A DNA stretch of 8,075 nucleotides from Gemmatimonadota bacterium (GCA_002712305.1 PATE01000102.1:55134-63208); one strand, 5' to 3'; shown: positions 1-8,075, counted from the stretch's first letter. The notes: generated by a model not told the origin, from the sequence alone. Made by a program: numbers and translations.

Positions 1-981
1 CTGTTAAGACAGGGCGACGGCGACGGTGCCATGGCCGCCTTCGGCCAGTTGCTGGATCAATACGAGGGATCTCTCTTTGAAATCCCCGTTCGACTCAATC
101 GCGCAACTCATCTGTTTGCCACGGGAAACCTGGACGGAGCGGTGGTCGCTTTTGAAGATCTGCGAACCCGGGGCCTCGACAAGGAACAGGCCTTCTCCGT
201 CAACTTCTATCTGGCGAATGCGCGCTACAGTCTGCGCCAGTTCGAAGAGGCACACCGGCTGTTCGATGAACTGTTGACGAGCGATCCAAACGCACCCGAG
301 CGTGCAGATCTACTCTTCGGTCTGGCGGAGAGCAAATACCAGCTGGGAGATTTCGAGCAAGCCAGTACACAATATCGGCAGATCCTGGCAGAGTTTCCCA
401 ACGAGACGTCGGCCGATGACTCACAATACAATCTGGCTTGGTGTCTGATCGAGCTTGGGCGTGAGGATGAGGCGATGGCCGAATTTGGGCGGATTCTCGA
501 AAACTATCCCGATTCGGAGTTCGCCGCCGCGGCACAATTCACGTTTGGTGACTATGCCTACAATCGGCAGGAGTACTCCGAGGCGCTGAATGCTTACCAA
601 AAAGTGCAGGAAGCCTATCCCGATGCGCCTGTGGCCGCCCAAGTTCCTCGCCTGCTCGACGAGTTGAAGGAGGCGCTCGCCTATCAGGAGTACGAGAAGG
701 GGTTGGAGTTGATGGATCTCGCCGATAGTGGCGGCGGCGAAGCGGACTACCGTCGAGCGATCGAGGTGTTCACACGAGTTCGAGAGGCCTATCCAGGCAC
801 TGAGAGCGAGATTGGGGCGATCAGTAACATGGGGGTTTGCCTCGAGAGCATCGGGCGATGGCAGGATGCGGTCGATCTCTATGACGAGGTCATCGTCCTT
901 TACGAAGAGGAACGGGCCACACGTGAGGCCTTTCAGTTCGCGAAAGCTCACCGAGATTGGATCGTGAGTACCAGACTATGA
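1..981 (+). CDS. TPR-repeat protein, YbgF/CpoB-like, 5' end outside window
   Basis: The reading frame is open from the first base, and the residues before the first ATG (position 31) already look like a TPR helix, so the true start lies upstream and the 326 visible residues are a C-terminal part. About seven to eight TPR-type helical repeats can be followed (roughly residues 31-60, 64-95, 102-135, 139-172, 175-210, 213-265 and 271-303). Several end in a YP turn (ENYPDSEFAAAAQF, QEAYPDAPVAAQ, REAYPGTESE), which is characteristic of the YbgF/CpoB and BamD style of periplasmic TPR protein. Such proteins act as scaffolds; CpoB works with the Tol system and peptidoglycan synthesis, which fits the ExbB/ExbD genes downstream. 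Any signal peptide would lie off the window. The stop codon overlaps an ATG of the next frame (ATGA at 978-981). TPR identity is secure; a CpoB-type role is inference. Confidence 0.88.
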   Translation: MLRQGDGDGAMAAFGQLLDQYEGSLFEIPVRLNRATHLFATGNLDGAVVAFEDLRTRGLDKEQAFSVNFYLANARYSLRQFEEAHRLFDELLTSDPNAPERADLLFGLAESKYQLGDFEQASTQYRQILAEFPNETSADDSQYNLAWCLIELGREDEAMAEFGRILENYPDSEFAAAAQFTFGDYAYNRQEYSEALNAYQKVQEAYPDAPVAAQVPRLLDELKEALAYQEYEKGLELMDLADSGGGEADYRRAIEVFTRVREAYPGTESEIGAISNMGVCLESIGRWQDAVDLYDEVIVLYEEERATREAFQFAKAHRDWIVSTRL

Positions 982-991
982 GCAGGATCGC

Positions 992-1000
992 AAGAGGAGA
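992..1000 (+). promoter_or_regulatory. Ribosome binding site selecting the ATG at 1008
   Basis: The purine run AAGAGGAGA has an AGGAG core at 995-999, eight bases before the ATG at 1008. The two earlier in-frame starts, TTG at 957 and ATG at 978, have only weak matches upstream, so this site decides the start of the DUF5683-like gene. Confidence 0.7.
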
Positions 1001-1007
1001 GCGCCCC

Positions 1008-1553
1008 ATGTGGCGTCGACAAACAACTGTATTTATTGTGTGCCTGGGCCTATTCTGCATGGCATCGGACACGGTGGCTCAGGGACCGGGATTTCAGGTT
1101 CAACGGGATCAGGTATCGGTTGGACAGGCTCGCGTGTTATCCGTCCTTTACCCAGGCTTGGGCCAGCTCGCGGCCGGGAATCGTCAGCGTGGTACCGCGA
1201 TGATTGTTGGACACACGGCCTTTCTAGTCGCCTGGCTGTCGTCGAACAGCGACTTCGGCACGCACGAAGATCAGTTCGAGCTCGAGACCGAGAGATACTT
1301 GGCCTTGCGTGAGGGCGGGAACTTCGCTGATGCCGACGAAGCTTGGCGACGTCTGACGGACCGCAAGGACGACCTGGATCAGGCACATACGGTGAGAGTT
1401 GCATTCGGCGCCCTCACAGCAGCCCTCTATGCCTACAATCTTGTGGATGTCTTCGTCCTGGGCGGCGTCGAACCGAGGCAGCAAAGAGTTTCGTTAGCGC
1501 CGCAAAAGATCGGTGACGCACCCGGTCTGATGCTGGTGGCAAGGTGGCGATGA
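1008..1553 (+). CDS. DUF5683-like membrane protein with signal peptide
   Basis: A protein of 181 residues. The ATG at 1008 is chosen because it has a strong ribosome binding site and begins directly with a signal peptide (basic MWRRQ, then hydrophobic TVFIVCLGLFCMA, with likely cleavage near TVAQ, residues 22-25). In-frame starts at 978 (overlapping the upstream stop as ATGA) and 957 would add 10 or 17 residues. The mature part has the layout I know from DUF5683 proteins: SVLYPGLGQLAAGNRQRG followed by a hydrophobic segment (residues 45-78), a charged stretch with a YLALREGG motif, an RLTDRKDDLDQ segment, a second hydrophobic segment ending YAYNLVDVFV (141-150), and a short C-terminal strand (LMLVARWR). 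DUF5683 has no established biochemical role; it is common in Bacteroidota. The gene sits between the TPR gene and a lipoprotein gene, so an envelope role is likely. The family call rests on pattern memory, not a search. Confidence 0.75.
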   Translation: MWRRQTTVFIVCLGLFCMASDTVAQGPGFQVQRDQVSVGQARVLSVLYPGLGQLAAGNRQRGTAMIVGHTAFLVAWLSSNSDFGTHEDQFELETERYLALREGGNFADADEAWRRLTDRKDDLDQAHTVRVAFGALTAALYAYNLVDVFVLGGVEPRQQRVSLAPQKIGDAPGLMLVARWR

Positions 1554-1942
1554 TGAGCAGACACAAGCTGAAGTGGACGGTTCTGGCCCTCGCCGGTGTG
1601 TTCGCATGGACGGCGTGCAGCAACGATACCAAACTGCCGGCCAACTACCACGACGATGCACTCGGTCAGCCCACGGACGTTGAGTCACTTCTTGAAGGGA
1701 CGGATTTCACGGTCACATGGCAGATGGCATCGACGACGAATGTCGATGGGTATGTCGTGAGCCTCACCGATACCTCGGGAGCTGAAGACACACGGTTTGT
1801 CGACGACGGGGCCGCCACGACCTACGAGGAATCGGGACTGCAGTTGTCCTCCGGCACTTTCTATATCATTCGCCTGTGGGCGGTGGACGACGTCGGGTTC
1901 TTCGGGCCCACGTCTGATCCCGACACACTGGTCGTTCCGTAA
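1550..1942 (+). CDS. Small putative lipoprotein with one fibronectin type III-like domain
   Basis: A protein of 130 residues from the ATG at 1550, which overlaps the upstream TGA by four bases (ATGA at 1550-1553). ATG at 1553 and GTG at 1544 are also possible; AAGG at 1541-1544 can serve as the binding site for either ATG. The N-terminus is a signal sequence (RHKLKW, then TVLALAGVFAW) ending in TAC-SND, with Cys23 the probable lipidated residue. The lipobox is unusual in having Trp at position -3 instead of Leu or another aliphatic residue. Residues about 40-130 follow a fibronectin type III pattern: PTDVESLLEGTDFTVTW, then NVDGYVVSLTD, then TTYEESGLQLSSGTFYIIRL and AVDDVGFFGPTSDP. Such domains usually mediate binding. 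Its position inside the run suggests a small outer-membrane or periplasmic accessory. The FnIII assignment is likely; lipidation is plausible but not certain. Confidence 0.78.
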   Translation: MMSRHKLKWTVLALAGVFAWTACSNDTKLPANYHDDALGQPTDVESLLEGTDFTVTWQMASTTNVDGYVVSLTDTSGAEDTRFVDDGAATTYEESGLQLSSGTFYIIRLWAVDDVGFFGPTSDPDTLVVP

Positions 1943-1965
1943 CGACGAAGAACAGGCATAAATCC

Positions 1966-3198
1966 ATGGCTTCCGCTCCAGGCCGTTTCTCCTCACCCTC
2001 TGATCGAATCAATTTCGGCCGACTCCTTGTCGAGACGCGCCGGCTGGCGATCTACGGGTTGCTCATCGCATCTATGATGTTGAGCGGGGGAATCGTCTAC
2101 AGCATCTACTACGCCGCCGAGCGAACGCCACCTCCACCGGCATTGACCCGTCTTGTGATTCGGAAACCGCGATCCACGAAGCAGTTCGTCCTCAAACGGC
2201 AGAGACTGCGTCCTCGTGCGATGACGAAAGAAGTGACCGCCCTGCGTCCACGCCTCCAAAGACCTGCACCGAGATTGCAGGGACTCAGTGGGCTCGGGCG
2301 CGTGCAGAGTTTCGACTATGCCCTCGACTCCGACGTCGGGCTCCGCCTCGACACGGGGCCGATCGAGTTGAGCGCCACACGCATCGCGGGCACCAAGGAG
2401 CCCGAAAAGCGCATCGCCATGCGTGAAGAACTCATCGACCTGCGTGCTCTCGATACCGGGAAATTCAAGGGCCTGATCATTCAAGACCCGTCAGATCGCC
2501 GCAACGTGCGCGGGTTTGTCTATCTGGGAACAGCGTGGGCCACGGATCTGGAGCCGACCTTCGATTCAGCTGCCAAAGCCGTGCCAAATCTCGTTCGGGC
2601 CCTCAACGAGCATACGGGGATTACGGCCAAGGTCGACGCTCATCTCTTCGTCGATTCGCAGGCCCTGTTTCGCACGCCGTTCGTATTTCTCACGGCCCAG
2701 GAAGCCTTTGAACTCACTGCCCGTGAGATCGAGAATCTCGGTGAATATATGCGTCGTGGGGGGTTCGTCTTTACAGACAACGCCAATCCCACACAGGAAT
2801 TCAGCCAGGCCGAAGCGGCCTTGCGTCGGGTTTTCCGTGATGCTCTGCGAGGCGATGGCGTCTTACAGATCATTCCCAACGACCATCCGATTTTCCACAC
2901 TTACTACGACTTTGACGGTCCACCGGTCGGCTCAGAATTGCAGGTCGGTGGACGCTCGGCACAGCGTGGCCGTGAACGCGTAACGCAGGCACGGTCGTCC
3001 TACCATCTCGAGGGAATTTTCCTCGACGGCCGATTGGTGGCCATATACTCCGACAAGGGGTATGTCCATACCTGGGCGAGGAACTTCGGCAATGAACCAC
3101 AGTTGAGGTTCGGTATCAACGCCGTCATCTTCGCCCTCACCCAAGAGGGTTCGATTGCGCAGCAGCAGATCGACTTCTACAGCGAAGGGAGTGGCTGA
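1966..3198 (+). CDS. Membrane-anchored DUF4159 domain protein
   Basis: A protein of 410 residues starting at ATG 1966, with a modest CAGG site upstream. After a cytoplasmic N-terminus there is one transmembrane helix (about residues 27-50, LAIYGLLIASMMLSGGIVYS), then TPPPP (54-58) and a long basic linker rich in Arg, Lys and Pro (60-105). The C-terminal half (about 168-397) matches DUF4159: ALFRTPFVFLTAQEAFELT (233-251), YMRRGGFVFTDN (261-272), the hallmark NDHPIFHTYY (305-314), LEGIFLDGRLVAIYSDKG (348-365) and RFGINAVIFALTQEG (381-395). As I recall, DUF4159 has a fold related to class I glutamine amidotransferases, but no activity is established and I see no obvious catalytic triad. The anchor plus proline-containing basic spacer resembles the layout of TonB-like proteins, and an ExbB/ExbD motor lies downstream, so it could couple the motor to the periplasm. 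That role is inference; the domain call is firm. Confidence 0.87.
   Translation: MASAPGRFSSPSDRINFGRLLVETRRLAIYGLLIASMMLSGGIVYSIYYAAERTPPPPALTRLVIRKPRSTKQFVLKRQRLRPRAMTKEVTALRPRLQRPAPRLQGLSGLGRVQSFDYALDSDVGLRLDTGPIELSATRIAGTKEPEKRIAMREELIDLRALDTGKFKGLIIQDPSDRRNVRGFVYLGTAWATDLEPTFDSAAKAVPNLVRALNEHTGITAKVDAHLFVDSQALFRTPFVFLTAQEAFELTAREIENLGEYMRRGGFVFTDNANPTQEFSQAEAALRRVFRDALRGDGVLQIIPNDHPIFHTYYDFDGPPVGSELQVGGRSAQRGRERVTQARSSYHLEGIFLDGRLVAIYSDKGYVHTWARNFGNEPQLRFGINAVIFALTQEGSIAQQQIDFYSEGSG
3185..3191 (+). promoter_or_regulatory. Ribosome binding site for the GTG at 3200
   Basis: AAGGGAG lies eight bases before GTG 3200 and is embedded in the last codons of the DUF4159 gene. It favours GTG 3200 over the in-frame GTG at 3191 and over the ATG at 3155, which would both put the lipoprotein signal too far from the N-terminus. 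Confidence 0.65.
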
Positions 3199-3199
3199 C

Positions 3200-3952
3200 G
3201 TGCACAAGAGCGCCATCGCCGGGTTGGCGGTGCTCGTCCTCGGGGCGTGCAGTGTCACCCTGCCACAAATCAAGTACAGCAGCACACTGGCTGCCTCGGC
3301 ACAGGCTGAGTCAGCTGATATCGAGCAGAATGAGACCGGTGCGGCATATGTCATCGAGGGACTGCGGGTGCAGGTTGAGCCCCTCACCGACGAACGGCTC
3401 AATACTCTGTTCCCCAGTGATTCGGAGAGAGGTCGTTTCTCGACGAATCCCTACACCTATGGGAACTGGGTCGATCCACTGTTGGGCTACACACCGGTGC
3501 GATTCACCGTCTTTCGTATCACGATTACGAACGATATCTACGCCAAGGTTCTGTTGGACCCCCTCAAGGCGGTCTTGCATACAAATCGAGGCGAAACTCT
3601 GAATAGCTATGGCATCCCATCGTGGTCGCCGCATAACAGCTTCGAGCGCTACTATCGGGCGCTGAGAGGCCAGAGTGGCAACGAGTTCTATCGATTCGAC
3701 CTGCGAATGGGAAACGTGCGGAGCACGGCCTACCTGGAAGACACGCGAGTCTTCAAGGGGGAGTCCTATGGTGGACTCATCGCCTTCGATCCGCTCGCGG
3801 AGGACGTGACCCAGGTTCGACTCGTGCTTAAGGACTTTGTATTGCGGTTTGACGCATCGGGACAACCACTTGAGGAAGTAGACGTCACGATGGACTTCGA
3901 CCGCACACTGGACGTGCACGAAGTGCAGGTGGCCGCTGGCGCCGAGGAATAA
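3200..3952 (+). CDS. Uncharacterised lipoprotein, probable beta-sandwich
   Basis: A protein of 250 residues from GTG 3200, one base after the preceding stop. With this start the N-terminus is a textbook lipoprotein signal: MHK, a hydrophobic stretch (SAIAGLAVLVL) and the lipobox LGAC with Cys17. The residue after Cys is Ser, so by the E. coli rule it would go to the outer membrane, although that rule may not hold in this organism. I do not recognise the family. The body looks beta-rich: VIEGLRVQVEPL (51-62), RFTVFRITITNDIYAKVLLDP (101-121; two strands around a short turn), NEFYRFDLRM (161-170), GGLIAFDPL (191-199), then VRLVLKDFVLRFDASG (206-221). The 101-121 stretch with its N-x-x-x-x-V-x-L-D-P layout recalls Ig-like domains of envelope lipoproteins. 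A conserved-looking aromatic segment (NSYGIPSWSPHNSFERYY, 135-152) may be a binding surface. Its last codons, GAG GAA, provide the next gene's ribosome binding site. Confidence 0.85.
   Translation: MHKSAIAGLAVLVLGACSVTLPQIKYSSTLAASAQAESADIEQNETGAAYVIEGLRVQVEPLTDERLNTLFPSDSERGRFSTNPYTYGNWVDPLLGYTPVRFTVFRITITNDIYAKVLLDPLKAVLHTNRGETLNSYGIPSWSPHNSFERYYRALRGQSGNEFYRFDLRMGNVRSTAYLEDTRVFKGESYGGLIAFDPLAEDVTQVRLVLKDFVLRFDASGQPLEEVDVTMDFDRTLDVHEVQVAAGAEE
3944..3949 (+). promoter_or_regulatory. Ribosome binding site for the GTG at 3960
   Basis: GAGGAA, the last two sense codons (Glu-Glu) of the lipoprotein gene, ends ten bases before GTG 3960. It supports this non-ATG start, which also gives a clean signal peptide. 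Confidence 0.55.
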
Positions 3953-3959
3953 CCGTCGC

Positions 3960-4907
3960 GTGCGGCGAGCCTTGGTCGCACACTGGGTCGTCCTGCTCGG
4001 CGTTCTGTCGCCGTTGGCCGTAGCTGCCAATGAAGGGCCCCGACTGGCGATCCTGAGCTTTGGTGACGAAGCAGGGTTCCAGGGAACCTGGGATCTGAGT
4101 GAGGATGTGCCGCGGTCACTTGCGGATCATCTGATGGCTCTTTCGTCATTGCGAATCATTGACGCCGACAGCGCGAGGAGCGCTGAACGGGCCGCAAGAG
4201 ATGCTGGAGACAGCGGGATACCGTTGGCTGCGGCGGTAGGACGAGCCCTGAACGCTGACTACGTACTACGGGGCGTTGTCACCGCCTGTGGGATTCGACG
4301 GGTTGTGGCGGGGGATCCGAACCTTGGAGGCTACCGCTCGTTCACCTACTCGGTGGGTTTGGAACAGGTCGAACTCACGCGAACGACGACGGCATCGGTG
4401 GTGCGCACCTTAAGTGTGGTACGAGACAGTGTGATGCGGCCCCTTGAGTTGAATCTCTTCGGGCGACCCACATCGCACGACAAAGAGTTTGAAGCGCTGC
4501 TGAAGATCGATTTCGGAGGGGAGGCCTTCGACGAGTTGCCATTTGGACATTTCGTCCGAGGTGCCCTCGACGATCTGGCGTCCGACGTTGTCAGCACGAT
4601 CTATGATCGTCGTCCCCTGATTCTGAGCCGGGAGGGGGCTCGAGTGCTCGCCGTGGATGAGGAGCAGATTTTCATCGGCATCGGCGTGGATGACTACCTC
4701 GAGATCGGAGACGTTGTCCCGATCCTCGATGACGAAGGACATCGAGTCGGCCTCGTAGAGGTCGTCGAGATGATCGGCCCGCATCTGTCGAGCGCGAACC
4801 TGCTCGAATCGGCGGGTGATACCGAGAATGGGGTGGTCGAGCTGGGTCAGAGGTTTGGCCAGCGCCTGGCACCCGATGCAGCCGCAGCAAGCACCAAGAA
4901 GGACTGA
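3960..4907 (+). CDS. Secreted CsgG/FlgT-like protein
   Basis: A protein of 315 residues from GTG 3960, seven bases after the preceding stop. It begins with a signal peptide (MRRALVAHW, then VVLLGVLSPLAVAA, cleavage near residue 22-23) that has no lipobox Cys, unlike true CsgG. Residues about 28-110 have the CsgG/TolB-N-terminal-type fold pattern: RLAILSFGDEAG, DVPRSLADHLMALSSLRIIDAD, then AAAVGRALNADYVLRGVV, the usual layout in which a family protein senses or binds a partner. A middle part (125-165) resembles the CsgG beta region, and DELPFGHFVRGALDDLASDV (191-210) resembles the helix near the end of the CsgG core. Residues about 218-285 (LILSREGARVLAVDEEQIFIGIG... LEIGDVVPIL... GLVEVVEMIG) match the small beta-barrel domain seen at the C-terminus of FlgT. 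The tail is Ala/Lys-rich. Likely periplasmic or outer-membrane-associated, next to the motor genes. The pore function of CsgG should not be assumed. Confidence 0.78.
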   Translation: MRRALVAHWVVLLGVLSPLAVAANEGPRLAILSFGDEAGFQGTWDLSEDVPRSLADHLMALSSLRIIDADSARSAERAARDAGDSGIPLAAAVGRALNADYVLRGVVTACGIRRVVAGDPNLGGYRSFTYSVGLEQVELTRTTTASVVRTLSVVRDSVMRPLELNLFGRPTSHDKEFEALLKIDFGGEAFDELPFGHFVRGALDDLASDVVSTIYDRRPLILSREGARVLAVDEEQIFIGIGVDDYLEIGDVVPILDDEGHRVGLVEVVEMIGPHLSSANLLESAGDTENGVVELGQRFGQRLAPDAAAASTKKD

Positions 4908-4988
4908 CGAATCACCACGGATTTGACCTGCTCGTAGGGACAGACCCCCTGCGGGAATGAGATCAGGGTAACTCGAAGGAGTCACGAC
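4908..4988 (+). other. 81-base gap before the motor genes
   Basis: This is the only sizeable non-coding stretch inside the run. A TTGACC at 4923-4928 resembles a -35 box, but no convincing -10 element follows at the right distance. A weak AGGG/CCCT hairpin (4936-4939 with 4947-4950, seven-base loop) is too short to be a terminator. The gap may allow separate expression of the ExbB/ExbD genes, or may simply hold the strong ribosome binding site at its end. Confidence 0.4.
4975..4981 (+). promoter_or_regulatory. Strong ribosome binding site for the exbB-like gene
   Basis: GAAGGAG sits seven bases before ATG 4989. It is the best match to the anti-Shine-Dalgarno sequence in the window, consistent with the channel subunit being needed in excess over the ExbD subunits. 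Confidence 0.8.
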
Positions 4989-5723
4989 ATGTGGGAGACA
5001 ATTCAGAGCGGCGGCCCGCTCATGGTTCCACTCATTCTTGCCGCCGTCCTCGTCGTCGCCTATTCCATCGAACGATTCTGGGTTCTGAGCCAGATGCCTT
5101 CGGCGGAAGAGGCGAAACAGCAGCTCGACGCACTTGAGGCCGCGCTAAGCCGTGGCGGTCAGGAGGCGGCTGCTTCAGCGTGCGACGAGGGAAAAGGTGT
5201 GCTGAACTTCGTTTTCGCACGCATCCTCAGGAGGCACAACGCCCTGATGATCGAGCAGCGCGAGTTCCGCGATACCAACGAAGAGATCATTCGCCGTGCC
5301 GAGATGGGTGGCTCGGGTGAAATGGGTCGCTTCATGGTTATGCAGCAGGAACTGGCCGATCTGAAGCAGGAACTCGTGATCGAGACCGAGGAGGCGGCAC
5401 GCGGCTATTTGGGCCGGCATCTCGCGCTTCTCAATACGATCGGCAACATTGCACCCCTGCTGGGTCTGCTTGGAACGATTACCGGTATGATCGTTGCCTT
5501 CGAATCCATCGCCGTTGCAGGCGCTGGCGATCCGCGGGTCGTGGCCGGTGGTATTTCACAGGCACTGGTCACCACAGCCTCGGGCCTGGTTATCGCCATT
5601 CCGACGATCGTTTCGTATCGATATCTGGCTCGCAAGGCCGAGTCTCTGCTCGAGACGGTGGAGGTCTACGGCCACGCTTTCGCCAACAGCCTGATCATGA
5701 CCACCCAGGCCAGTGGTGAGTAG
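4989..5723 (+). CDS. exbB: ExbB/TolQ/MotA-family proton channel protein
   Basis: A protein of 244 residues, the same length as E. coli ExbB. It forms the inner-membrane channel that, with ExbD-type partners, turns proton flow into mechanical work. Three membrane helices are visible: about 11-32 (LMVPLILAAVLVVAYSIERF), 145-172 and 187-212. The family signatures are APLLGLLGTITGMIVAF (155-171) and GISQALVTTASGLVIAIP (188-205). Thr163 and Thr196 correspond to the conserved pore threonines (T148 and T181 in E. coli ExbB). The position of E. coli Glu176 is Gln191 here. A long charged cytoplasmic loop lies between helices 1 and 2 (about 33-144), as expected. Two ExbD genes follow, nine bases downstream. 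Which pathway it serves (Tol, TonB-like, gliding-like) cannot be told from the protein; exbB is used in the family sense only. Confidence 0.95.
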   Translation: MWETIQSGGPLMVPLILAAVLVVAYSIERFWVLSQMPSAEEAKQQLDALEAALSRGGQEAAASACDEGKGVLNFVFARILRRHNALMIEQREFRDTNEEIIRRAEMGGSGEMGRFMVMQQELADLKQELVIETEEAARGYLGRHLALLNTIGNIAPLLGLLGTITGMIVAFESIAVAGAGDPRVVAGGISQALVTTASGLVIAIPTIVSYRYLARKAESLLETVEVYGHAFANSLIMTTQASGE

Positions 5724-5732
5724 GTAGAGACC

Positions 5733-6149
5733 ATGGCACGCCACCGCGTTCGGCACGGACAAGTTCTGCTCGATGAGACCGAGCCTGATCTGACACCGCT
5801 GGTGGACTGCGTCTTCCTGTTGCTCGTGTTCTTCATGGTGACCACCGTGTTCCTGCACACCAAGGGACTCGAGGTAGACATGCCGAGCCAGAGTGATGCG
5901 CAGGAGGAGCAGAAGAAGGACATCAACATCTTCATCGATGATCGAGGCAAGATTCAGATCAAAGGGGTGGACGTGGAGCCCGCGCAGTTGGGCGAACGTC
6001 TGGCCAAGGCGATGGAGGAAGCGAACAACAAGAACATCATTATCAATGGTGACGGGGACTGTCCACAGAGATACGTCGTCTTTGTTGTCGATGAAGCACG
6101 TGCCGTCGGCGTCGAAGGAATTGCCTTCGCCCGCGAGCAGGAGGAATAG
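5733..6149 (+). CDS. exbD: ExbD/TolR-family motor subunit, first copy
   Basis: A protein of 138 residues, near the usual 135-145 for the family. A short basic cytoplasmic N-terminus (MARHRVRHGQ) is followed by the family motif DLTPLVDCVFLLLVFFMVTT (19-38), a single membrane helix carrying Asp25, the residue that is protonated and released in ExbD, TolR and MotB. The periplasmic part (about 45-138) has the ExbD fold pattern: INIFIDDRGKIQIKG, then NIIINGDGDCPQRYVVFVVDEARAVGVEGIAFA. It starts nine bases after the exbB-like gene; GGTGAG at 5715-5720 and AGGTAGAG around the stop give only a modest ribosome binding site. Its final GAG GAA codons form the ribosome binding site of the second copy. 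It lacks the peptidoglycan-binding OmpA-like domain of MotB, so it belongs to the ExbD/TolR type. Confidence 0.94.
   Translation: MARHRVRHGQVLLDETEPDLTPLVDCVFLLLVFFMVTTVFLHTKGLEVDMPSQSDAQEEQKKDINIFIDDRGKIQIKGVDVEPAQLGERLAKAMEEANNKNIIINGDGDCPQRYVVFVVDEARAVGVEGIAFAREQEE
6141..6146 (+). promoter_or_regulatory. Ribosome binding site for the second exbD-like gene
   Basis: GAGGAA, encoding the terminal Glu-Glu of the first ExbD copy, lies nine bases before ATG 6156. The arrangement would favour coupled translation of the two ExbD subunits. Confidence 0.6.
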
Positions 6150-6155
6150 GGCCGC

Positions 6156-6563
6156 ATGCCACGTTATCGCCCCCTGATCGAGGATGATGAGCTGAACATG
6201 ACGCCCATGATCGACTGCGTCTTCCTTCTGCTCATTTTCTTCATGGTTACAACGGTCTTCAAGGAACCCTACAGCCTACGCGTCGAACTGCCCGAGGCGC
6301 ATCAGGCGGAGATCGTTGAGGAGAAGAAACTCGTCGCATCCATTGCTGCAGACGGTACGATGGAGATCAATCGCCAGCCCGTCACACTGGCCAATCTCGA
6401 TGAGATTCTCCGACGCGAGAAGGCGAGCACACGATCGCTGACCCTCGTGGTGCGCACGGACAAGGAAACGAAACATCACTTCGTGCTGGAATTGTTCGAG
6501 TCGGCCAAACGAGCGGGTATCGAACAGATTCCGCTCGCAACGGACGAACCTGTCACCGACTGA
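6156..6563 (+). CDS. exbD: ExbD/TolR-family motor subunit, second copy
   Basis: A protein of 135 residues, six bases after the first ExbD-type gene. It has the same layout: a short N-terminus (MPRYRPLIEDDEL), the motif NMTPMIDCVFLLLIFFMVTT (14-33) with the proton-carrying Asp20, then a periplasmic domain (about 38-135) with ELPEAHQAEIVEEKKLVASI, DGTMEINRQPV, SLTLVVRTDKETKHHFVLELF and ESAKRAGIEQIPLAT. It shares the membrane motif with copy one, including the unusual Cys after the Asp, but the periplasmic parts differ widely, so this is an old duplication with divergence. Both copies look functional and may form a heterodimer inside one ExbB-type pore. It ends three bases before the stop of the convergent minus-strand gene, with no clear intrinsic terminator. 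Confidence 0.94.
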   Translation: MPRYRPLIEDDELNMTPMIDCVFLLLIFFMVTTVFKEPYSLRVELPEAHQAEIVEEKKLVASIAADGTMEINRQPVTLANLDEILRREKASTRSLTLVVRTDKETKHHFVLELFESAKRAGIEQIPLATDEPVTD

Positions 6564-6566
6564 CGG

Positions 6567-8075
6567 TCAGCGCCCCGCTTCAATTTTCTGCAGACGTTGG
6601 CGGGCCACGGAATTGCCCGGCTGCAGTCTCAGAATCTCACGCCACTGGGCTGCCGCAGCATCGACCTCTCCAAGCGCCATCAACACCTGCCCCAAGGCAT
6701 CTCGTGTGTCGATTTGGTCCGGTTTCAGCGCGACACTCCGCTCGAAGACCCCGCGCGCCTGATTCAGTTGTCCTGCCATGGCGTGGGCCATCGCCAGATT
6801 TGACAGCAGTGTTGGCGTGATTTCTGCATCGGTGGTGCGATCGAGGGCCCGGTTGTAGGCGTCGATGGCCAAATCGAATCGTTTCTGAAAGTGGTAGACC
6901 TGGCCCAGGTCGTTGTCGATACCTTGTAGATCCGGATCGCTCTCTCTCGCTCTCAGATAGGCGTTGGCGGCCTCCGTCAGTTTGCCCCCGTCCTGCAGCA
7001 GACGCCCCGCAGCGTGCAACGTGGGAGCGTGGTTGGGGTCAAGTTGTAAGGCGAGCTTGTAGTTCTTCTCCGCCAACCCGAACCGCCCCTGCTCATAGTA
7101 CGTCCGCCCCAGCAGATAGGGTGCGGCGGGGTGGTCTGGATACTCGGCCAGTTTGCGCTTGTAGTGGTTCACACGACGCTGGGCGGGGGACAGACGCTCG
7201 AACTCGGCGAAGGCGCGTGCCGCGGTCACACTATCCCGGTCCGTTTGCTCGTAGAGGCGGCCCAGATTCAGGTAGGGGCGCGGATCCCAGGGGGCCAGTC
7301 GGGCGGCGGTGCGGTAGGCCTTTTCTGCGGCATCCGTCTGGCCATCTCGCTGATAGGCAAGTCCAACCCAGCCCTCATACTCACCCGACGTCGGTGACAG
7401 CCGCGCAGCCTCCTTCAGCGAAACAATTGCCTCTTCGTGGAGACTCTGCTGCAACTGGATCTTGCCAAGGAGGTGATGGGCTTCGGCACGCTGTGGATCG
7501 ATGTCGAGTGCCCGGCTCAAAACTGACGTAGCCTCCTCGTAGTCGCCTCGTCCCGAAAAGTGAACCGTGGCCAGATTGATGTGCGAGGTGACGTCCTGTT
7601 CCTCTACTTCCAGGCCCCGCTCGAGGTGACGCCGACTCTCTTCGTAGCGCCCCTGCCGATATAACTCGGAGGCAAGGCGCCTCAGCGTACCGGCGTCTAT
7701 CCTTTCGTCCACCTTCATCTGCTCGGGGGCTGCAGGAGCCGGCATCGTCGAAGTTGCGATGGGGGCCGATGTCGGTATCGGCACCTGAGGGCCCTCCACC
7801 GGTTGGGCTCCCTCCACGACTTCAAGGTATCGTCGTGTCGGTGGATTGCGCACGATCTGCCGCTGTCCCGAGGGCCACGAGATCACGAGGCTATCGACCG
7901 AACCGGATGCACCCAATCCGAAAACCAGCCGCGGGTCGAACTGACTCTGGAAACCTCTACCACGCTGCAATTGCCGGGTCTGCACGACGTCACCGGCGAA
8001 GAGGCGAACCCTGGTGCCGATGGCATCGCGGTTACTCGACTCGCCGATGAGCCTCAGGCCAAGCCAACCGTTCAC
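6567..8075 (-). CDS. ASPIC/UnbV plus TPR-repeat protein, N-terminus outside window
   Basis: The frame stays open to the last base (8075), so the 502 visible residues are a C-terminal part; the GTG at the very edge is a coincidence of the cut. Residues 1-90 match the ASPIC/UnbV domain: NGWLGLRLIGESSNRDAIGT, VRLFAGDVVQTRQ, FDPRLVFGLGASGSVDSLVI, SWPSGQRQ, then YLEVVEG. This domain normally follows FG-GAP/VCBS beta-propeller repeats in secreted CRTAC1-like proteins, so those are expected upstream. A Pro/Ala/Thr-rich linker (91-122) leads to about ten TPR repeats (about 128-490), including DAGTLRRLASELYRQGRYEE, AEAHHLLGKIQLQQSLHEEA and RPYLNLGRLYEQ. The likely location is periplasmic or extracellular. 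It converges on the motor genes with a three-base gap, so it is not in their operon, and a functional link is not shown. Domain calls are firm; the role is unknown. Confidence 0.92.
   Translation of the reverse strand: MNGWLGLRLIGESSNRDAIGTRVRLFAGDVVQTRQLQRGRGFQSQFDPRLVFGLGASGSVDSLVISWPSGQRQIVRNPPTRRYLEVVEGAQPVEGPQVPIPTSAPIATSTMPAPAAPEQMKVDERIDAGTLRRLASELYRQGRYEESRRHLERGLEVEEQDVTSHINLATVHFSGRGDYEEATSVLSRALDIDPQRAEAHHLLGKIQLQQSLHEEAIVSLKEAARLSPTSGEYEGWVGLAYQRDGQTDAAEKAYRTAARLAPWDPRPYLNLGRLYEQTDRDSVTAARAFAEFERLSPAQRRVNHYKRKLAEYPDHPAAPYLLGRTYYEQGRFGLAEKNYKLALQLDPNHAPTLHAAGRLLQDGGKLTEAANAYLRARESDPDLQGIDNDLGQVYHFQKRFDLAIDAYNRALDRTTDAEITPTLLSNLAMAHAMAGQLNQARGVFERSVALKPDQIDTRDALGQVLMALGEVDAAAAQWREILRLQPGNSVARQRLQKIEAGR

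Follow-up and report, generated by a model that had tools for sequence, protein, structure and literature searches.

A putative DUF4159-headed force transducer in a conserved ExbB-ExbD-ExbD gene block with barrel-like partners

For a long time, TonB and TolA counted as the usual force transducers of motors of the ExbBD type. In 2025, vWA-headed transducers of 5:2 motors were proposed in Mol Biol Evol; they combine a transmembrane (TM) helix, a linker and a vWA domain, and their genes neighbor one for a TPR protein, a single tolQ and two different tolR genes. A motor-box beta strand follows their TM helix, and an SHLS signature or TM histidine has been reported for many, not all, of the TM-linker transducers (PMC12204202). 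The AglRQS-Glt system of Myxococcus likewise contains one ExbB and two ExbDs, accompanied by giant TPR proteins and by GltC, GltD and GltE (PMC3169522).

The locus compared here with these systems lies in a window of 8,075 nucleotides (G000:C21:55134-63208), which forms the right end of the 63,208-base contig C21 in a genome (G000) of 4.77 Mb and 91% completeness. The comparison set consisted of 64 genomes of one little-studied phylum, taken as Latescibacterota, a name inferred from the relatives. On balance, sequence comparison leads us to favor, by a modest degree, the reading that this is a locus for a proton-driven envelope machine in which a DUF4159 protein serves as a TonB/TolA-like transducer and which acts on outer-membrane partners of its own. 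The genes are as follows, with positions counted from the first letter of the window.

Upstream of the window (L009), same strand as the window genes: first gene of the block, a 703-aa protein with discoidin and FlgD_ig/CHU_C-like parts (a T9SS-type tail).
Upstream of the TPR gene (L009), same strand as the window genes: barrel-like proteins of 1,026, 938 and 891 aa.
1..981, plus strand: TPR protein, of which the 3' third lies in the window; well above the Pfam cut-off, YbgF-like, and PorW/SprE-like below cut-off.
1059..1553, plus strand: small membrane protein, DUF5683-like below cut-off; start uncertain (957-1059).
1550..1942, plus strand: putative lipoprotein with an FnIII-like domain, below cut-off.
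1966..3198, plus strand: DUF4159 protein of 410 aa, well above the Pfam cut-off; proposed force transducer.
3191..3952, plus strand: lipoprotein with a beta-sandwich core and invariant Cys20; AgmX/PglI domain in paralogous loci, not here.
3960..4907, plus strand: gene 6, a secreted protein kept in the locus; its likeness to CsgG/FlgT goes no further than E = 0.036.
4989..5723, plus strand: ExbB/TolQ-type motor protein, MotA_ExbB well above the Pfam cut-off.
5733..6149, plus strand: first ExbD/TolR-type protein, well above the Pfam cut-off; TM Asp in LVDCVF.
6156..6563, plus strand: second ExbD/TolR-type protein, well above the Pfam cut-off; TM Asp in MIDCVF.

The nine co-directional genes that a preliminary description had reported at 1-6563 are present, but they are the end part of a larger block of 13 genes and ~19.6 kb (C21:42065-61696), which opens with the 703-aa gene and closes with the second ExbD. 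The four extra genes lie upstream on the same strand (L009:1932-12730), with gaps of at most ~70 bases and with starts taken from a simple custom gene caller. The complete TPR protein has 1,080 aa (L009:12739-15981) and begins ~2.26 kb upstream of the window. The gene identities given earlier stand for the TPR protein, the DUF4159 protein, ExbB and both ExbDs, all above Pfam cut-offs, whereas the DUF5683 score (19.0 bits, cut-off 26.7) and the fn3/FnIII score (21.7, cut-off 25) fall short in Pfam. The CsgG/FlgT identity of gene 6 was dropped, as beyond an FlgT_M match at E = 0.036 nothing backs it. Scans of the block for promoters and terminators returned fewer sites than shuffled sequences and were uninformative on transcription. 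A protein with UnbV/ASPIC and TPR parts follows the block on the minus strand (window 6567-8075) and is also found in L011, L012 and L097; FG-GAP/UnbV proteins adjoin paralogues as well (L050, L051).

A gene-neighborhood comparison, which the preliminary description had recommended, supports treating these genes as one conserved unit: relatives (L011/L097, L012 and L096) have the order barrels-TPR-DUF5683-FN3-DUF4159-lipoprotein-gene 6-ExbB-ExbD-ExbD, and L095 shows the window-type order as far as its contig reaches. The complete genome G051 carries the block in two pieces, one ending with the lipoprotein (L013) and the other consisting of gene 6-ExbB-ExbD-ExbD (L082). The genes inserted between them span roughly 15-20 kb, and both halves keep their strand and inner order.

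Paralogous forms are also found. One, rearranged, occupies C57 of G000 itself (L049/L050) and is seen again in L014, L019 and L020; in a third form the motor is divergent (L022-L026, L028); and a fourth, smaller form comprises a PorV-family gene, TPR, ExbB, one ExbD and DUF4159 (L051, L083, L084, L099, L101), with a weak lipoprotein homologue beside PorV in L083, L084 and L099. In this smaller form the TPR protein is giant, and the G000 copy and its close relatives have Glu instead of the TM His discussed below. In different families of the phylum, TPR, DUF4159 and ExbB/ExbD genes recur in several orders, mostly with the lipoprotein, and the same core recurs in L087, from another family; each block has its own barrels.

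Within G000, nine ExbD genes are distributed over five ExbB/ExbD loci. Three of these loci (C21, C57 and C76) adjoin a DUF4159 gene, and under random placement the probability that three of the five would lie at most 5 kb from one of the genome's eight DUF4159 genes is P ~5e-5. At the fourth (C144, ExbBDD), a TonB_C gene, the only one in this genome next to a motor, occupies the same position as DUF4159 elsewhere, and the fifth (C52) sits at a contig end. The C52 locus (L052) has ExbB-ExbD-ExbD genes close in sequence to those of the window, followed by a HEAT-repeat gene; divergent genes for TPR, DUF4159 and lipoprotein, if there are any, would be past the contig end. Because the order recurs in several genomes and because of this low probability, the gene arrangement is more than chance. 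An ExbBDD motor and envelope genes could nevertheless share transcription or inheritance and yet not make up a single machine, as the insertion that splits the G051 block and the DUF4159 loci with no motor genes nearby (L015-L018, L029-L034, L036) might suggest. Such a neighbors-only account has to contend with an order kept in several genomes, with a core that stays together while being reshuffled into several arrangements, and with motor/DUF4159 co-location far above chance; we regard it as quite improbable.

The preliminary description also stated that the window contains no Pal, TolB or TonB and that the motor partners differ from those of Tol-Pal or from a TonB_C protein. Both statements hold: Pfam and NCBIfam profiles detected none of the three in the window or in ~15 kb upstream, the view to the right stopping at the contig end, and neither kind of partner occurs in the block. 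The ordinary Tol or TonB locus that it had named as the competing possibility is therefore not what the window and the ~15 kb upstream contain. Genome-wide, no TolB_N match exceeded the cut-off (best 15 bits, against 22.4).

The likely transducer is already inside the window and was overlooked in that description: the DUF4159 protein. It is composed of an N-terminal TM helix, a strand-like segment, a basic proline-containing linker and the DUF4159 domain at residues 196-391. The segment after the helix, strand-like as judged from the alignment, is conserved and reads TRLVIRKP in the window; it may correspond to the motor-box strand. PDB 4i66 is similar to the end domain (E 9e-17), which is neither TonB_C nor vWA; no TonB_C was found in any window protein. 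Out of 58 rows of the DUF4159 family, 46 score a clear N-terminal hydrophobic helix, a few of these 46 being short signal-peptide or lipoprotein forms. The family profile matches 56 of the 64 genomes, with up to 15 matches per genome, some of the weaker ones being DUF4159 proteins without a membrane helix. Up to four DUF4159 genes occur in tandem with no motor genes adjacent in another family of the phylum (L089, L091). In the literature searched, neither the name DUF4159 nor any paper with both DUF4159 and ExbD was found.

In E. coli TonB, S-x3-H belongs to the helix signature. Among the DUF4159 proteins, in a 40-row alignment, the aligned TM position is His in L021, L029, L030, L032, L034-L036, L055, L078, L083-L085, L089 and L101, and the S-x3-H pattern, with Ser four residues before the TM His, is present in 11 rows (for instance SLLLH, SVVLH, SLVLH, SVTIH and SVFLH). 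Glu replaces the TM His in L051, L098 and L099, and even in the best relatives the SHLS motif is just half present. From the TM His position to DUF4159, the distance is 156-179 residues in all rows. The TM His is missing from the window's copy (ASMMLS) and from the two other subfamilies that come with their own ExbB-ExbD-ExbD genes, so that TonB-mode docking of the window copy is conjectural. Rows with the TM His are scattered over separate sublineages of the tree; loss of the residue in a few lineages, the window's included, would be the simpler account.

The lipoprotein encoded next to it, described earlier as unknown, indeed belongs to no Pfam or NCBIfam family. Its lipobox Cys is invariant among relatives, and its predicted structure has a confident core (mean pLDDT 82) with a beta-rich fold, for which no fold-search match reached E 0.001 and only a loose Ig-like beta-sandwich resemblance emerged. 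In L022-L036, the lipoprotein carries an added C-terminal region, and in the three paralogue lipoproteins tested the AgmX/PglI domain NF033768 is recognized at 51-62 bits (cut-off 40), together with weaker matches to GltG, GltJ and TonB, the last also weakly in PDB. A TonB-like end domain is thus present in the wider system, on another protein. The composition, which the preliminary description had called unfamiliar, remains so in having no TonB_C or Tol-Pal partners, but it is less foreign than was claimed, since AgmX/PglI on the paralogue lipoproteins ties it to both TonB and AglRQS-Glt.

These matches also bear on surface movement or transport of the AglRQS-Glt kind, in which the motor would drive a complex of TPR protein, lipoprotein and barrels along the envelope and the DUF4159 protein would be accessory. 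One ExbB with two ExbDs and a giant TPR protein is the arrangement described for AglRQS with GltC, GltD and GltE (PMC3169522), and GltG and GltJ are among the families matched by the AgmX/PglI-bearing lipoproteins. However, the profile search gave no match to equivalogs of GltC, GltD, GltE or GltG, the window lipoprotein is without AgmX/PglI, and the literature search found nothing on movement in these uncultured bacteria. We consider this explanation possible, although unlikely.

The proteins upstream of the TPR gene provide candidate outer-membrane partners. None of the three barrel-like proteins belongs to a Pfam or NCBIfam family, and their alignment matched no PDB sequences. A 943-aa relative of the 938-aa protein, from L014, was modeled from 16 sequences (mean pLDDT 63, pTM 0.62) and is predicted to be a large antiparallel beta protein with a signal-peptide-like N-terminal helix and some two dozen long strands. 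The folds that match it best are outer-membrane barrels of various sorts, among them SlpA of Deinococcus, the Mtr complex, SprA and LptD, and against porins Z is ~14. With moderate confidence, the three barrel-like proteins may be assigned to a class of large outer-membrane barrels. The idea that they are SprA itself was dropped, because C91 carries SprA as a frame of its own, 2,101 aa long.

If these barrels were receptors for large substrates, opened by the DUF4159 protein, the locus would be a specialized TonB-like uptake system. The TonB-like layout, S-x3-H in relatives, the canonical TonB at the same position in C144 and the provision of each block with its own barrels are consistent with this view. 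It is harder to reconcile with barrels that matched no plug or TonB-dependent receptor family and with a block in which no binding proteins or transporters were recognized, and we assign it a minor share of the probability.

As a third alternative, the locus might power type IX-like secretion or sorting in organisms that have SprA and in which GldL and GldM were not detected. SprA was identified in 63 of the 64 genomes; in G000 it lies on C91 with its neighbors in frame (658 bits; L061, C91:14000-33000). The GldM profile matched none of the 64 genomes and GldL was not found in G000, in searches run without a positive-control genome. The single-ExbD paralogue has a PorV-family neighbor (83 bits, cut-off 90), and the TPR protein, whose matches are promiscuous, scores 119 bits against PorW/SprE (cut-off 250), as well as 212 bits against YbgF over its full length. 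T9SS-type tails on upstream proteins point in the same direction. Against this, none of the motor/DUF4159 loci has SprA linked to it, and the block's own T9SS matches are all below cut-off, except for a sorting tail at L049. These hints of type IX secretion are no more than suggestive, and we judge this explanation improbable. Immediately upstream, both of the block (L009:2-4043) and of a paralogue in the same genome (L049:8762-12971), there are proteins ending in T9SS type A or FlgD_ig-like tails. A broader scenario, in which DUF4159 transducers throughout the phylum energize surface export or movement, replacing GldL/GldM for the SprA route and acting on their own large barrels, is also improbable on present evidence and is offered as speculation.

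The sequences themselves show the gene content and its kept order, the domain layout, the motor residues, the TM His or S-x3-H of relatives and the TonB-like domain on paralogue lipoproteins. For the favored reading, a machine with the DUF4159 protein as transducer, we infer docking, force transfer and the part played by the barrels as follows. ExbB and the two different ExbD proteins would form an inner-membrane motor on which the TM helix of the DUF4159 protein docks, and proton flow through ExbB/ExbD would move that protein. Its linker, of roughly 120-160 residues, would span the periplasm, and the DUF4159 domain would serve as the output head in place of the TonB/TolA end domain. The TPR protein and the lipoprotein may tie the complex together through the periplasm, with the head pulling either on their assembly or on the barrels. 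The three barrel-like proteins would be the clients, which force would open, load or move, and the physiological purpose may be uptake, secretion or surface movement.

If true, a DUF4159-headed class would mean that motor and output head are freely mixed, with several copies per genome across the phylum, and a testable function for DUF4159 would follow. The TM His, absent from those subfamilies that have an ExbB-ExbD-ExbD set of their own but present in others, offers a concrete prediction on transducer docking. The proposal could also bear on how protein export is powered in a phylum with SprA in which GldL and GldM were not detected.

Compared with known systems, the block shares with type IX secretion a PorV-family gene beside a paralogue, a PorW/SprE-like TPR match, T9SS-type tails nearby and SprA elsewhere in the genome, but its motor is of the ExbBD type, GldL/GldM were not detected and SprA is unlinked. 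Like Tol-Pal, it has a YbgF-like TPR protein and a TolQ/TolR-like motor, whereas TolB and Pal are absent from the window and ~15 kb upstream. Motor proteins with a TM Asp and the layout of the transducer recall TonB-ExbB-ExbD, although the block has no TonB_C or recognized receptor and TonB has a locus of its own at C144. One ExbB, two ExbDs, a large TPR protein and the AgmX/PglI domain of the paralogue lipoproteins are shared with AglRQS-Glt; the DUF4159 transducer candidate, the block's own barrels and a window lipoprotein without AgmX/PglI set it apart. Similarly, a TM helix, a long linker and a globular end other than TonB_C, the synteny of TPR with one tolQ and two tolR, and, in DUF4159 relatives only, the TM His/Ser signature match the vWA transducers, from which the system differs in its DUF4159 head, in a window copy without that signature, and in having its own lipoprotein and three barrel-like proteins. 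The window system is without the defining features of TonB and Tol-Pal and is closest to the vWA transducers and AglRQS-Glt. The DUF4159-headed class is probably a version of known force-transduction systems, with a head that is new relative to TonB_C or vWA.
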